Shown piece by piece: positions 8,640 to 53,035 of a stretch of DNA of 64,000 bases. The stretch lies in the NCBI GenBank assembly GCA_951217055.1, contig OX578280.1, positions 58,676,633 through 58,740,632 of the forward strand, read 5' to 3'. A program made the position numbers and the translations under genes. Numbering within the stretch: position 1 is the first letter of the stretch; each line of letters starts with the position of its first letter. The notes beneath the pieces were generated by a model. It searched no databases. It was not told where the DNA came from and saw only the letters and a list, made by a program, of their open reading frames with translations. This DNA is from Gerris lacustris (lineage: Eukaryota > Arthropoda > Insecta > Hemiptera > Gerridae).

Positions 8640-9275
8640 GTCACATCTTGCAACTGAATTTTGAAGCAGTTATCCTCACCCGATTGAATTGAAATTTTGC
8701 ATGCAGGTTTAGTTTGGATGAAAATGCATGGTTTGCTAAGTGACGTCATTTTAAATCCAATATGGCGGGCAGCCCAAGATGCCGGACTAGTTTTTTTTTA
8801 GCACGCCCATAATATGGGTATCAAATGAAAGGGTTGGCTGAGAAGAATACGAATAAAAGCTTGTTTTTAAAAATATTATTACTACGTTTTTATTAGCTTG
8901 CTTTCTTGTTTGTTCGTTAATTTGTTTGTTTGTTTGTCCAGTACAAATCTTGCAATCGATTTTTAATTAACTTCCCGAGTAGCTAGACATTTGAAACTTT
9001 TAGAACAGCTCAGAACACGATGACAATGCATTATTTAAATACTTTTAGACATATTTCAGCAGAATTTAATTCGTTTTCAGCAAATTTTGATGTATAGAAA
9101 GTTAGTTCGGAAAAAATCCGCAAGTTATTTTAATTGTTTTGACATATCCATACTTACAATCTTCATTTTGACGGGTTTCAAATTTATGCTTTATGACAGA
9201 AAATTTAAAACTTAGTATATAAAAAGTTCTTTTCAGCGATCATAGAATCCTTAAACGGAAAGATTTCCAACTCCC
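8640..9275 (-). repeat. Family D repeat, copy 1 (inverted) with a related upstream segment
   Basis: The part 8880-9275 is the reverse complement of 23440-23800, 29150-29705 and 41850-42470. It shares CGTTTTTATTAGCTTGC, a TTTG/TTTGT run, TTGCAATCGATTTTTAA, CGATGACAATGCATTATTT and TCCGCAAGTTATTTTAATTG. The part 8640-8800 is a different but similarly built unit: TATG run, CATCTTGCAACTG, GAAATTTTGCATGCAGG, and a GACGTCATTTTAAATCCA block. No transposase frame is seen. Confidence 0.7.
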
Positions 9276-16165: not shown

Positions 16166-17131
16166 CAGGGGTTCCCAACCTTTTTCCTTCATCGACCCCC
16201 TTTAAAAAATAATTTTCCTTATCGACCCCCTTGCATTTTTCCATTAATATACAGCACACAACGTTAGCAGAATACTTATAATTGCCTTTAAAAATCTTAA
16301 AGATAACAATTTGAGCTAAGAACTTCGTCAAAAAATTATAAAAAAGGGGTTTATATGAGATTTCAGATAACTGATATAAACTTATTTCATATACACCATG
16401 CGTATATCTTCATTATAATTGTACAATAGTTCGATTTTTATTAATGTGGTCATTGCGTGATATTATTGATATTTTTTTTTTTTTTTTTTTTTTCCAATAT
16501 TTCACCTAAAATTACCATATCTTCTTTTAAGTGTTCAGTGTAAATTTTCAAAACAAATATATGTTCACCTGTAGTGTACATTTGTAACAGTTCGCTAGAA
16601 GAAAATCTTCTGTAATTTCTCTTAATCTTGAGTTATAATATTGAACATAAAACATCAAAATAGGGTTTCTACAAAAAGTGAATTCATCCAACTGCACAGA
16701 AAATTCACTGTTTTGCAATTCACAAATAAAGGATTTTCTTTTTAGTATTTTCTCACATTTCATCCATACGACGTTGTATGGAATAATTACTGTGCGGAAT
16801 ACTAATACTAAAACTGGTTCAGGGTTCATTTTCATAAGAGTTTTTACTGCCTCTTTTATTGCTGGTATTATTTTTTCACCAGTGGTATGTGGATATCCGG
16901 CTTTTGCAATCAACAAAGAAATATTGTAAGAAGCTTCTGATCCACCAGAATTATTAAGTTGACGGCTTAAGAAATTATACACAAATTTATCTATTAGTTT
17001 CTTGAAATAATCAATATTCAAACCTTTTAAATTTATCAACGACCCTCAATAGACTCCTGGAATACTATAGACCCCTTATAAATTTCCATAGACCCCCAAG
17101 GGGTCCACCTGGACCCCGTTGGGAACCCCTG
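16166..17131 (-). mobile_element. hAT transposon with internal deletion, transposase fragment retained
   Basis: The 966-bp element has terminal inverted repeats CAGGGGTTCCCAAC and GTTGGGAACCCCTG. The identical 8-bp duplication CTCTAGAG flanks it at 16158-16165 and 17132-17139. The termini and the CTCTAGAG target are classic hAT features. Runs of GACCCCC/ACCCCC lie just inside both ends. The minus strand keeps one transposase segment (16548-17039), so most of the coding region has been deleted. Confidence 0.95.
16548..17039 (-). pseudogene. hAT transposase fragment (ZBED5/SCAND3-like)
   Basis: A 163-codon minus-strand frame lies inside the hAT element. Residues about 36-60 (ASYNISLLIAKAG, then PHTTGEKIIPAIKE) match the conserved segment of hAT transposases that were domesticated as ZBED5, FAM200 and SCAND3-like proteins. 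That segment usually reads ASY-N-LLIAK-GKPHTIGE-LI-PA-KE. Residues about 108-121 (SEFSVQLDEFT) match the segment around the first catalytic aspartate (usually SLQLDEST), so that acidic position is retained. A full-length transposase is about 600 residues. The BED zinc finger at the N-terminus and everything after the first third, including the remaining catalytic residues and the dimerisation region, are absent. Between the two conserved blocks the frame seems altered. It is dead as an enzyme. The first M is an arbitrary start. Confidence 0.85.
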
Positions 17132-23424: not shown

Positions 23425-23800
23425 CGTCAATTAATTTATTTCTTTGTTTACTTTTCCTTTTTAGCTGTCATTCAATGTCAATCTCTTAATAAAAAATCAT
23501 AAATTTGAAACCCGTCAAAATGAAGATTGTAAATATGGGGCATGTCAAAACAAATAACTTGCGGATTTTTTCCGAACTAACTTTCCTTACAGCAAAATTT
23601 GCTGAAAGCGAATAAAATTCTGCTGAAAGATGGCTAAAAGTATTAAAATATTGCATTGTCATCGTGTTCTGAGCTATTCTAAAAGTTTCAAATGTCTAGC
23701 GACTCGGGAAGTTAGTTAAAAAATCGATTGCAAGATTTTTACTAGACAAAGAAACAAACAAGAAAGCAAGCTAATAAAAACGTAGTAAAAATACTAATTT
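23425..23800 (+). repeat. Family D repeat, copy 2
   Basis: It shares with the copies at 29345 and 42130: TTGAAACCCGTCAAAATGAA, GGATTTTTTCCGAACTAACT, CATTGTCATCGTGTTCTGAG, TCGGGAAGTTAGTTA, a CAAA run and GCAAGCTAATAAAAACGTAG. The left part present in copies 3 and 4 is missing. Confidence 0.75.
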
Positions 23801-29129: not shown

Positions 29130-29705
29130 AATTTCAAGATAAAAAGAACTTTTTATATACTACGTTTTTAAATTTTCTGTTGTACCATATGTAATGTTGA
29201 TAATATAATTGTGATTGTTATATAATGTAAGTGAAAAAAAAATAGTTCCGAATTTATTTACTTCACATAACAACCATCTAGAGAGCTGATCTTAAACCTA
29301 TAAAAGGACAAATCTTTGTACAACGGATCTCACCTCATCTTGGATCAATTAATTTATTTCTTTGTTTACTTTTCCTTTTTCGCTGTCATTCAATATTTAC
29401 CTCTTAAAAAATCACAAATTTGAAATCCGTCAAAACGAAGATTGAATATATGGGACATGTCAAAACAAATAAAATAACTTGTGGATTTTTTCCAAACTGA
29501 CTTCCCATACATCAAAATTTGCTGGAAACGAATTAAATTCTGCTGAAAGATGACTAAAAGTATTAAAATAATGCATTGTCATCGTGTTCTGAGCTATTCT
29601 AAATCTTTCAAATATCTAGCTACTCGGGAAGTTAGTTAAAAATCGATTGCAAGATTTGTACTGGACAAACAAACAAACAAACAACAAAGCAAGCTAATAA
29701 AAAAG
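29130..29705 (+). repeat. Family D repeat, copy 3
   Basis: It begins ATTTCAAGATAAAAAGAACT, continues TACGTTTTTAAATTTTCTGT, and includes the ACGGATCTCACC segment and the CAATGCATT core. It ends with a CAAA run and AAGCAAGCTAATAAAAAAGT. It is collinear with 41838-42470. No coding capacity. Confidence 0.8.
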
Positions 29706-36014: not shown

Positions 36015-37900
36015 AATAGTTATTTATGCACCTAGGGAGTAAAGTAAGCCATTATTCCCTGAGCGAAAAAGTTGGTTCTTGAGGCGAAGCCGAAGGAACT
36101 ATGGTCCCCAAATCTTGAGGCGAAGCCGAGGGAATTAGACTTTTTAATTCCCGAGGCGCAGCCAAGGGAGATAATTATCGCGAGGGGAATAATGGCACTT
36201 TACTCCCGAGGTACCTACAATATTTTATCTCCAGTAGGGACGAAATGTAACTTTTTAGGGCTAGTTTATAGGTAATAATGTTGGTCTTTTCATCCCTGTT
36301 CTTAAAAACGGGGAAATTATGTGAAAACAGGGAAAAAATGTAAAAACAGGATTATAATCCACGTTCGCCAACCTAATTATTTTGTAAATAGTAGAGAATG
36401 AATAGCAAATTTAGTGAATTGGTTAAAATCAGGTTGGCAACACTGCTTTTAAACTCCCAGCTGTATTGCGAGTCAGTCTCCGATGTTTTGTTTACTTTTG
36501 CTTAGCTTTCGTTGAACTTTATTTTTTTTTATTACTTTAAAAGTGATTATTAATTGTTTTAAATCATTTATGTTATTCAATTTCTGTATTAAATTCGTTT
36601 AATAAAGAAATACAAATGTTTTCTGTGTTGAATAAATCTTGTAAAGCGCTTTTTCTGGAGATAAAATTTTGTATGTACTTCGAGAATAATGCATTATAAT
36701 TCCCTTGTTAAAATTATCTCTCTCGACTAGGCCTCGGGAGCTAATTGGCATTAATCCCTCGGCTTCGCCTCGGGAATTAAGATACCTAATAACCTCGGCT
36801 GCGCCTTGGGATTTGGTTGCCTTGATTCCTTCAGCTTTGCCGCAGGAATCAACTCAGTCACAAGGGAAATAATATCTTACATTATTCCCTAGGTGCATAA
36901 ATGATGTGAATTTATGAAAATGTGTATTTTCTCCCTACTGGAGATAATACACATTTTCATCCATTGCCCAGTTTGTATTTATTATTTTAATAAATAACAA
37001 TAATTATTAGCATTATTAATAGCAGATATAAGAGATTCAATATTAAAAAAAGTCCAGTCATGCACCATAACTTAATGAGCGAATTTTCAAAGAAATCTGT
37101 GTATTATTGGCTTATGAAAATATAGGAAAATTTTGGATTAGAATTTGCATGGGTGAAAAAAAAATTGGTACACAGGGGTACGGGGTACAAAAGTCAAAAT
37201 AGTATTTACCCTTCAAGATGCATGTCGTTGGAAAGCTTTTTAAAATTACAGCAATTGTTGTTATGTACCTACACTTTTATCATATTTTCATATAAAAGGG
37301 GGGTAAAATGGAAAAAACACGTTTCTATACTATTTTTGACCCTAAATTGTAAAAATTTGACCCCTAAATGAACTCCACAAATTCTGGCCAACGAGCTCAT
37401 CCTTTCTTTTGATATTATTGACATTTTAAAATTTGTTTGAAATTTTTAAGTGCATCCTAAGGGGAGATATCGTCTGGAGTAACACATACATTATATACAT
37501 ACATACAAAAAAAGTGTTACATTTTAGGAATCGATTCCGAATGGTCTAAAACGGATTTCCATGAAAAAATATTTCAAAAATTCGCATTACAAAAATTTTG
37601 AACCATTGCAATAGCGTAATTTTCCTTGAAAATTCGCTAACAAATAAGAATTGGAATTAAACTCTAATAGAAGGTTATTTAGATGCAGGTTATAAACAAT
37701 GATAAATCTGATTTCAATTACCTACTTCATTACATTAGCCATTCATTCTCTTCTATTTATAAAATAATTAAGTTGGCAATCCTTCTTTTTCTCCCGGGTT
37801 TTACTTTTTCTCCCAACTTTTATGTTAAGGGAAGAAAAGACTTACTTTAGTCCCTCTAAACTAATCCAAAATCATAACTTTTTCTCCCTACCGGAGATAA
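36015..37900. mobile_element. Family F foldback element, copy 1, with CGAAGCC hairpin arrays
   Basis: The left end (AATAGTTATTTATGCACCTA) is mirrored near 36880-36905 (TTCCCTAGGTGCATAAAT). Between them, two arrays of GC-rich units oppose each other at 36080-36215 and 36715-36870. The units resemble CCCGAGGCGAAGCCGAGGGA. TTTTATCTCCAGTAGGGA (about 36222-36240) opposes CTCCCTACTGGAGATAA (36933-36950), and another copy lies at 37883-37900. The segment 36360-36450 (TTCGCCAACCTAA... to ...AGGTTGGCAAC) is an inverted version of 37690-37785. The right third is interrupted by an insertion (37050-37641). No transposase frame. Collinear in part with 46931-47861. Confidence 0.75.
37050..37641. mobile_element. 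Insertion inside family F copy 1
   Basis: The other family F copy runs straight through this point (ATATTAAAAAC then AAATAAGAATTGGAAT, about 47250-47275), so the roughly 590 bp here are inserted. GCGAATTTTCAAAGAAA (37080-37096) opposes TTTCCTTGAAAATTCGC (37621-37637), giving terminal inverted repeats close to the boundaries. The interior holds an inverted copy of the GGGGTACAAAAGTCAAA module known from 22480-23152. The 72-codon frame at 37153-37371 is just that module read through. Confidence 0.65.
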
Positions 37901-41837: not shown

Positions 41838-42470
41838 AATAATTTCAAGATAAAAAGAACTTTTTATATACTACGTTTTTAAATTTTCTGTTGAAACATA
41901 CGATTCAATGTTGATAATATAATTGCTATTGTTATAAAATATATAATGTTAGTGAAAAAAAAAAATTCCGAATTTATTTACTTTACATAAATGACAACCA
42001 TAGAGTAATCTTAAACCTATAAGAGGATAAATCTTTGTACAACGGATCTCCCCAACACCAAATCTAAACCGTGCCATCGATATATTTGAAATAATATAAT
42101 CGATAAATAATATAATCGATATTTCCTGTTTGCTGTCATTCAATGTTTATCTATCACAAATTTGAGACCCGTCAAAATGAAGATTGCGTGAATATTGGAT
42201 AAGGCAAAACAAATAAAATAACTTACGGATTTTTTCCGAACTAACTTTCCGCACAGCAAAATTTGCTGAAAACTAATTAAATTCTGCTGAAAGATGGCTA
42301 AAAGTATTAAAATAATGCATTGTCATCGTGTTCTGAGCTATGCTAAAAGTTTCAAATGTCTAGCTATTCGGGAAGTTAGTTAGAAATCGATTGCCAGATT
42401 TGTACCGGACAAACAAACAAACAAAAAAACAAACAAACAAGAATGCAAGCTAATAAAAACGTAGTAATAA
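41838..42470 (+). repeat. Family D repeat, copy 4
   Basis: Collinear with 29130-29705, from TTTCAAGATAAAAAGAACTT to the CAAA run and TGCAAGCTAATAAAAACGTA. It carries a local change around ATAATATAATCGATA (42088-42122), with a short internal duplication of that unit. Confidence 0.8.
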
Positions 42471-42794
42471 TAATAAAACTATATTGTATGTAGATAAATT
42501 TAGATCACATAGTAAATAAATTAATAAATATGAAGTTAAAATTAATAATGTATTTATAATATTTCGTAATGAACACATTTTTAACTAATTTTTCAAAATT
42601 AAAGTATTATTGTTAAATAATTAGAAATATATATTGTAAAACAGTACATTTAGCAGTCAATAAAGAAAGCTAATAATAATAATCCTAGTCCAGATTACTA
42701 ATTATGTTTTTAGACCACTAACGACCCTCATTTTGTCCAAGTGGCATACCTGATTAAAAAAATATATGTATATTTATCGTGCACCGTTTGTTTT

Positions 42795-46930: not shown

Positions 46931-47861
46931 AATAGTTATTTGTGCACCTAGGGCGTAAAATAAGTCATTATTCCCTGAGAGAAAAAGTTGGTTCTTGAGG
47001 TGAAGCCGAAGGAACCATGGTCCCTAAATCCCGAAGCGAAGCCGAGGGAATTAGAGTTTTTAATTCCCGAGGCGCAGCCGAGAGAGATAATTATAATGGC
47101 GGGAATAATGGCACTTTACTCACGAGGTACAATATTTTATCTCCAGTAGGGAGATAATACACATTTTCGTCCATTGCACAGTTTTTATTTATTATTTTAA
47201 TAAATAACAATAATTATTAGCCCTTTAAATAGCAGATATAAGAGATTTAATATTAAAAACAAATAAGAATTGGAATAAAACTCAAATAGAAGGTTATTTA
47301 GATGCAGGTAAACAATGATAAACAATAAACAGCTTGGTTTTCCGGTGAAATCCGCGTCACGAAGGGGAAGAAGTCCGACGTTTCGCTTCCACTACTGGAA
47401 GCATCTTCAGGGGTGTGGTGCATCGTGATGTTTACTTGAAGCAACGTTGTCTTGTTGTTGCTTCAAATAAAACATCACGATGCACCACACCCCTGAAGAT
47501 GCTTCCAGTAGTGGAAGCGAAACGTCGGACTTCTTCCCCTTCGTGACGCGGATTTCACCGGAAAACCAAGCTGTTTATTACGAGTCTACCCGCGGAAGCC
47601 TACGCACCAAGTTAATGATAAACAAGGTCGAAAAAGCAGTGTCGCCAACCTGATTTCAACAACTTTATTACAATAGCCATTCATTTTCTACCATTTATAA
47701 AATAATTAAGTTGGCAATCCTTACTTTTTCGCCCTACATTACTTTTTCGCCTTACTTTACTTTTTCGCCCTACTTTTACATTTTCTCCCTACTTTTTAAG
47801 TTCAGGGAAGAAAAGACACTTTAGTCCCTCTATACTAACTTTTTCTCCCTACTGGAGATAA
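46931..47861 (+). mobile_element. Family F foldback element, copy 2
   Basis: Starts AATAGTTATTTGTGCACCTA and has one array of CGAAGCC hairpin units (46995-47090). It crosses directly from TTTTATCTCCAGTAGGGAGA to ACACATTTTC, where copy 1 has about 690 bp more. It ends TCTCCCTACTGGAGATAA. It is interrupted by a palindromic insertion at 47326-47613. Confidence 0.75.
47326..47613. mobile_element. Palindromic insertion with perfect 110-bp arms
   Basis: The identical 12-bp AATGATAAACAA flanks it (47314-47325 and 47614-47625), and family F copy 1 shows the uninterrupted site (AACAATGATAAATCTG, about 37690). Arms 47324-47433 and 47470-47579 are exact reverse complements over 110 bp. GAAGCAAC and GTTGCTTC extend the pairing into the 36-bp centre. 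The right arm contains CCTGAAGATGCTTCC, AGTAGT and GGAAGCGAAACGTCGG, a stem-loop motif. The variable-length duplication and inverted structure resemble 5'-truncated Penelope-like retroelements; that assignment is inference. Confidence 0.85.
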
Positions 47862-47879
47862 AATACATTTACTCAAATT

Positions 47880-49149
47880 TTAAAAGATCAATAGCAAATG
47901 TTTTATACATCCAATAATTTAATTTAAATAAAATAATGCAGTAAGTAGGAAGACTATACCTATAAATTCCATATAAGATGGAAGAATACAAAAAAAGATA
48001 ATATTTTAATATATATATTCCTAGTTTTAATTTATTTTTTCAATATACGATAAAGAAGTTTGAAAAGAGACACTTTCTATAAAATAGAAGGGTGGAAATT
48101 TCAGAGCGTTAAAACATGGAGATAGGAAAAAAGCATTACGATAGTTATCACAAATTATGATGGTGTTTAGAAAAAAAGGTCAGAGTTGGAGTCATTTCGT
48201 TATCAACCCTTATTGACGCTGATGTTATAGGACTTCTATTACAAGGATGCTAGAAAAAAACTTCGACTGAAATTATATCTGTCTAGTCGAGTAACTCTAG
48301 ACTCTAGAAAATATAGGACTGCTCCTAAGTTATAATAAAATAAATATGAATACTTATAAAGCTTTGGATAATTAACGTTATCATTATTCTTTACCCTATG
48401 AAAAGAAAATAATTAAACAATCTAAAGATTGTATTATAGTATTAAAGCTGAATTAATTCTAACAATTCCAAAAAGATTTTTCTTTTTAAATGAAATAATA
48501 ATAATGTTAAAATCTGAGCTCACATCAAGCAAGGCCAAGTTCCAGCAAGCATGCAGCTATCTTTTCTGGAACAAATTCATCAGGTTTTTCTCGCCCTCAT
48601 ATCTCTGCTTCCTCTTAATGATGGGCTTTTGAAGTTTGAAACATAGATTGAGCTTAAAGCTTAGGACGCATAAAAAATGAGCCCTTAATATTAAGCCTTT
48701 TCCGAAGGAAAAAGTTTCAATATTTGCATTTTTTTTTGTTACTGACTCGCTCTTCATCAAAACTATAAGTGAATTCCAGAGTAGAAGTCTTGCTCATGAA
48801 AGTAGAAGTTAAGTGAGGTTATGGACAGAAGTAAGAACAGACTTGGCCACAATATATCACTACTTTAATAGGCTGACTTTGTTGGGAGGGGATCTGTAAC
48901 TTAGGACTTAGGCCTTTTTTCACGGTTAGGTTTTTGTTGGGGATTATAAGTTCCATATAGATACCCTAGAAGCACGCTAAACGACGGAGTTCTGATATTG
49001 TAATGTGCGACACCTTTACTACAAATATATATTTAAGTAATTTAAAATGGTTGACAATCATTACCATATTGCGATAATGGAAGTTTCAAATTCGCATATA
49101 AAATATATATAGGTAAATATAAACCGTTTAAATTCGTCTTTAGAAAAAG
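47880..49149. other. AT-rich stretch with no recognised feature
   Basis: Opposed 67-codon frames at 48429-48632 and 48557-48760 look like chance. No transposon ends seen. Confidence 0.45.
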
Positions 49150-52239: not shown

Positions 52240-53035
52240 TAGATACTAGACCCGCTACGCATCATAACCTTAAACCCAGGTTCAGTTATTCTTCAGATCC
52301 ACCTCCAAGAGCTATGAAGAAATTATTCAGTCTGTTGTTGATTCTATGCTAGCAAGCATGACTGTGTGATTAAGAACCCTTGTGAGTGCTAGTTGTCCCT
52401 GGCATCCAGGTTTAATTTATTTATCCTGGATGCCAGGTAAATTTAGAGTTTTCTTTAATATGTTCTTTGGCATTGGACAGAGATTAGTTTAAGTGGAAGT
52501 TGAGTTGACAGTTGACTCAAAGCAAGCAAGTGGCTTTTGTTTATTTTTATGTTGTTGTTATTCGGCGGGTTAACCCTAGTTATCTGGGTTAGCTCATTTG
52601 TTCTGGCTTCCAGGCAAATATTTATACTTATTTCGGCGTGTTAACCCAGGTATCTGGGTTAGCTCATTTGTCCTGGCTTCCAGGCAAATATTTATACTTA
52701 TTAACTCTTCCTTGGCGTCCAGAAGAGTTATTTGGCTCAGTTTTGGCGGGATCTTCCCATCTCCTCCAAGTTACGAGAGGAACTGCAACGCAGCTACACT
52801 TCAGCTCAACTCTTCTCAGCTCTCCACAGCTAATCTCTCCATATTAATTTATAAGCTTTTACGTTTCACATTTTATTATTATAATATGCTCACTTTTATA
52901 CTTATTTTAATATTTAAAATACAGCTATTTACAGTCCACTAGCTCTGACTCTTTGTGTTATTTATTTATTATTATTTCTATCATACTAGTTCGTGGCCAG
53001 GTCAGGACTAACCCCCCCTGGTCCGAACAGTGGCT
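52240..53035 (+). repeat. LTR-like GC-richer region with tandem units
   Basis: The region contains an inverted pair CCTGGCATCCAGG/CCTGGATGCCAGG (52399-52437), a tandem duplication (52561-52701), AT-rich polyadenylation-like sequence (52850-52920), and a GC end CTGGTCCGAACA followed by GTGGCTGATATC. It could be a solo LTR ending at about 53029, but I cannot place its 5' end. The overlapping frames at 52598-52942 and 52638-52847 translate the tandem units and are probably not genes. Confidence 0.35.
52561..52701 (+). repeat. Tandem duplication of a 70-71-bp unit
   Basis: Units 52561-52631 and 52632-52701 differ at about five positions. Each has TTCGGCG(G/T)GTTAACCC, ATCTGGGTTAGCTCATTTGT and TGGCTTCCAGGCAAATATTT. 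Confidence 0.9.

Follow-up and report, generated by a model that had tools for sequence, protein, structure and literature searches.

A 288-bp insert with inverted arms and a one-sided tail in Gerris lacustris, probably a body-less insertion of a Penelope-like element

The window that we analysed, a stretch of 64,000 nucleotides from Gerris lacustris, contains at positions 47326-47613 an insert of 288 bp that is framed by exact 12-bp duplications and sits inside a repeat with other copies at 36-38 kb (Table 1). The duplicated sequence is AATGATAAACAA, and when 63,680 window positions were tested for a 12-mer with an exact recurrence 300 nt downstream, this was the sole case. A spacer of 36 nt separates the arms of the insert (47324-47433 and 47470-47579), whose complementarity covers 110 of 110 positions; 47324-47325, where the left arm begins, belong both to this arm and to the left duplication. 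The first-pass annotation of this DNA had described a 288-bp insertion with identical 110-bp arms and a perfect 12-bp flanking duplication, and both descriptions are confirmed. It had also called the insert palindromic, but the palindrome is not a symmetric one: the right arm extends for a further 34 nt before it reaches its duplication, and the left arm is without these nucleotides and directly abuts its own. The GC content is 50% in the insert versus 30% in the window.

Complementarity continues inwards past the perfect arms, with one substitution and one indel of 1 nt in about 13 positions, around a loop of 11 nt, and the inner 40 nt folds with -13.6 kcal/mol. The differences are unevenly spread, none in the 110 positions of the arms versus two in the 13 of the centre (Fisher p 0.010, for a division that was picked post hoc), and the centre may therefore be an older imperfect palindrome rather than the mere end of the duplicated segment. 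As for orientation, if one follows inwards the strand that ends in either duplication, it is in both cases complementary to a single sense strand. If the open frame and the motif described below define that sense strand, the arms stand head to head, with their outer ends at the target junctions. A second copy of the arm or of the tail was not found in the 64,000-nt window, where the next best matches span 28 nt (82%, to the central part; E 0.055) and 16 nt (E 0.31).

Table 1. The insert, its parts and the related host-repeat copy, with positions counted in the window
Feature	Position	Strand	Basis
Left target-site duplication, AATGATAAACAA	47314..47325	+	exact 12-bp repeat
Left arm, pLTR-like, inverted, no tail; outer end adjoins the duplication	47326..47433	-	complementary to right arm
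Hammerhead-like motif, left arm	47377..47410	-	pattern match
Centre, imperfect hairpin, putative meeting point of two copies	47434..47469	.	complementarity, fold
Right arm, direct pLTR-like copy	47470..47579	+	complementarity
Hammerhead-like motif, right arm; 7-bp stem II, no stem III	47493..47526	+	pattern match
Presumed ORF start of the element, ATG at 47480	47480..47613	+	translation
34-nt 'tail', right arm only	47580..47613	+	read from sequence
Right target-site duplication, AATGATAAACAA	47614..47625	+	exact 12-bp repeat
Host-repeat copy without insert, imperfect empty site	37639..37900	+	alignment

We then considered the host repeat, which has a GCCGAGGGAATTA-like core and recurs, in several copies and as inverted fragments, at 46931-47900 and at about 35.9-38.0 kb. 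One copy (last line of Table 1) crosses the site without the insert; 9 of the 12 duplicated bases are still present in it, and 26 nt beside the site are also missing from it. Most of this 26-nt segment is retained in a repeat copy on the opposite strand (36450-36221), which shows that the segment is part of the host repeat and was deleted from the insert-free copy. The comparison was made by pairwise alignment of the joined flanks of the filled site with the empty one; MAFFT put the gap elsewhere. The empty site that the first-pass annotation had noticed is thus present in an imperfect form, and it is good evidence of an insertion, although alone no proof of an exact duplication. The same annotation had read the perfect arms as a sign of either very recent formation or ongoing conversion. 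Identical arms are compatible with a recent insertion without proving it, because conversion between the arms may also have kept them identical. Recency is only weakly bounded by the 0 differences in 110 pairs, which set a 95% upper limit of about 1.4% per base on the divergence.

Each arm carries the motif CTGAAGATGCTTCCAGTAGTGGAAGCGAAACGTC, on opposite strands of the window. We take CTGAAGA, GAAA and GTC in it to be a hammerhead core, following the usual hammerhead scheme. The motif has a stem II of 7 bp and an extra T between core and stem II, and stem III is missing; under the same scheme, the presumed cleavage position would lie after 47526. In 100 shuffled versions of the window the motif pattern searched for did not occur. 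With a related but longer core pattern we obtained 11 viral and 41 prokaryotic matches, which, because of their short stem II, served as a chance control only. When one unpaired base was permitted before the stem, as the motif of the insert needs, and G-T pairs were allowed, stem II reached 4 bp in 2 of these 52 matches and at least 5 bp in none. Ten of the 11 pattern-matching viral contigs (L001 and L003-L011) contain one conserved stretch without stem II, which may be a gene that they have in common rather than a ribozyme.

Covariance and folding results for the motif were as follows. Rfam gave no match at gathering thresholds over the whole window, and at E values up to 10 the region 47200-47750 gave 14 matches, to microRNA and snoRNA models, with no hammerhead among them; a motif devoid of stem III may, however, score too low to be reported by the Rfam hammerhead models. 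The top match, mir-3817 (E 8e-12), scored 60.4 bits on one strand and 60.3 on the other, below the cut-off of 90. We read these microRNA and snoRNA matches as the effect of a long perfect hairpin on hairpin models, because both strands score alike, so that the pairs and not the letters carry the match. In the minimum-energy fold (-22.5 kcal/mol) the CTGA of the presumed core pairs with TCGG, and when the core was held open the energy was -19.4 kcal/mol. The right arm together with its tail did not fold better than shuffled sequences (z -0.07; 89 of 200 shuffles at least as good). Folding without constraint does not favour the motif, and these results, like the extra T, count against a hammerhead.

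From the presumed ATG, which precedes the motif core by 13 nt, a frame of 44 codons is open through the end of the insert, by itself weak evidence. Where stem II begins there is another ATG, in a different frame, with a stop after 15 codons. The 44-residue peptide had no homologue in the protein collection searched, which may hold few eukaryotes, and matched no Pfam family; a pattern derived from it matched 48 stretches in viral contigs, of which none was confirmed. Its top PDB sequence matches, among the best 60 of 368, were antibody light chains (best E 0.012), which we dismissed as chance. The insert contains no reverse transcriptase or GIY-YIG endonuclease domain. No parent element was found in the mostly prokaryotic and viral collections, a result that says little about eukaryotic relatives.

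What kind of element could leave such an insert? We consider it probable that it is a body-less insertion of an endonuclease-containing Penelope-like element (PLE), composed of two head-to-head pLTRs of which one is tailed. The arms, the duplications, the one-sided tail, the orientation, the motif and the open frame are all observed directly in the DNA, and from them we infer the PLE identity, because the published anatomy of PLEs would account for arms, tail, duplication, motif and frame together. The assignment is a structural one. Three of the six PLE features that we listed are present, namely an inverted pLTR pair, a one-sided tail and a short duplication in AT-rich DNA. For two more, a hammerhead at the ORF start and an ORF start within the pLTR, the observations given above point both ways, and the sixth, an ORF with reverse transcriptase and GIY-YIG endonuclease, is absent from the insert.

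The insert resembles Pen2a_Av and a Pen2_Av derivative of Adineta vaga, as described in PMC3846280, in having an inverted pLTR pair with a flanking duplication. In the A. vaga Penelope copies presented there, inverted pLTRs are adjacent and a tail of 31 bp is optional on one of them, to be compared with the 34 nt found here on one arm only; the ORF starts within the pLTR, and palindromes occur at the pLTR 5' end (PMC3846280), as would be the case in our insert if it is a PLE. Differences are also apparent. In the described A. vaga copies a direct pair of pLTRs occurs together with the ORF, complete or in part, whereas no body is present here; their pLTRs measure 181-218 bp versus 110 bp for our arms; and their duplications are of 8, 9 or 10 bp in the described cases, with none in some copies, versus 12 bp here (PMC3846280).

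A second likeness, in anatomy, is to PAc, the Poseidon PLE of Anolis carolinensis (PMC11167929). Its protein acts on both target strands, which it cuts and extends, and favours AT-rich DNA, and reverse transcription begins at two internal sites, most commonly 111-118 into the ORF, whose interval equals the tail; PLE tails are given as 30-40 bp (PMC11167929). The two starts that our insert suggests, about one tail length apart in an AT-rich target, would correspond to this scheme. A hammerhead near the ORF start is also described for PAc, with stems I and II; there the start codon coincides with the beginning of stem II, and the hammerhead was active with the protein added (PMC11167929). In our insert the presumed start codon precedes the core by the 13 nt given above, and the hammerhead is a putative one.

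On this basis we infer two priming events, an RNA template and a joining step for the PLE insertion. The protein of the element would make a staggered cut in the AT-rich repeat DNA, leaving 3' overhangs of 12 nt, and each 3' end would then prime reverse transcription on the element RNA. The single sense strand to which both sides are complementary, going inwards from the duplications, is what copying from such 3' ends would leave. Counted from the presumed ATG, the copy from the left end would begin at about nt 98-100, the no-tail site, and that from the right end at nt 134, the tail site. Both copies would run to near the pLTR 5' end and be joined at the imperfect palindrome, and fill-in of the overhangs would give the 12-bp duplication. 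One could further imagine that the palindrome at the pLTR 5' end is a working part of the process, a suggestion that we put forward tentatively. In that case, when a copy is primed on both target strands, the cDNA 3' ends would be complementary, because the 5' sequence of the pLTR is palindromic, and they could anneal, be filled in and close the break head to head. If so, the body-less insert would be the smallest product of the reaction, and the difference between its ends would reflect two separate starts.

Alternatively, the same PLE source may have produced the insert by self-priming, the template or cDNA folding back at the 5' pLTR palindrome and copying itself, and the double-stranded palindrome integrating afterwards. 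Self-priming on an antisense template was indeed proposed from the structure of A. vaga copies (PMC3846280). An imperfect hairpin centre next to perfect arms is what one expects if a hairpin primed and the arm was copied, and self-priming explains these two features at least as well as two starts do. However, it predicts equal arms, whereas the observed arms differ by exactly one tail length, and an extra step is therefore needed; we regard this origin as the less likely of the two, but as a serious competitor.

The remaining explanations lie outside the PLEs. A metazoan retrozyme, that is a small non-autonomous retroelement bearing a hammerhead, might have inserted as an inverted dimer, and one unit of the insert is indeed near the published size of 170-400 nt (PMC7229834) and has the presumed hammerhead core. 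Yet metazoan retrozymes are described as forming direct tandems with canonical type I hammerheads (PMC7229834), whereas here the pair is inverted, a direct tandem is absent and stem III is missing. Together with the lack of an Rfam hammerhead match, this makes a retrozyme very improbable. An artefact of assembly or of fold-back reads had also to be weighed. Perfect inverted repeats are a known class of artefact, but a fold-back would mirror the tail and the flank, and the left end stops 34 nt earlier; on this ground it was rejected. The exact 12-bp duplication that frames the insert, the host repeat that continues on both sides and the two differences between the inner arms also argue against an artefact, which we hold to be highly improbable.

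A short DNA transposon (MITE) with long terminal inverted repeats would explain inverted repeats inside a duplication-flanked insert, but 34 nt separate the right repeat from its duplication, so that the ends of the insert are not inverted repeats of each other, and a 12-bp duplication is unusual for TIR or MITE elements. A TIR DNA transposon was rejected for the first of these reasons, and a MITE origin seems scarcely credible. L1-type twin priming of a LINE, which also gives an inversion within a duplication-bounded insertion, copies different parts of the RNA in opposite directions and inverts the upstream part, whereas here the identical 110 nt is present twice and no poly-A 3' end is seen; it was rejected on account of the double copy, and we give it hardly any credence. 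The first-pass annotation had pointed to a mechanism that makes inverted dimers, as Penelope-like elements and twin priming do: the Penelope-like half of that proposal is retained in view of the tail, the motif, the frame and the orientation, and the twin-priming half is abandoned.

The mode of PLE insertion is itself unsettled. A study of 2013 suggested self-priming on structural grounds (PMC3846280), and in 2024 it was demonstrated in vitro that both target strands are cut and extended (PMC11167929). An insert with one tailed end and one end without tail is the expected remnant of two independent starts, and counting such inserts across the genome could help to choose between the models of PLE insertion. 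If they are transcribed, inverted repeats of this kind might moreover be a source of siRNAs, an effect suggested for the Penelope transcripts of D. virilis strain 160 (PMC3136932).

Several other features of the window deserve mention. A dispersed repeat family is represented at 8874-9150, which is complementary at 92-93% to 23552-23722, 29453-29681 and 42196-42472, among the 25 longest of 100 pairs. An open frame of 165 aa lies at 16548-17045 on the minus strand; it presumably resembles a piece of a hAT-type transposase, and a Pfam search of its translation returned no family. Finally, at 52561-52702, a GC-richer unit of 70 bp is present in two tandem copies that are 94% alike, in AT-rich surroundings.
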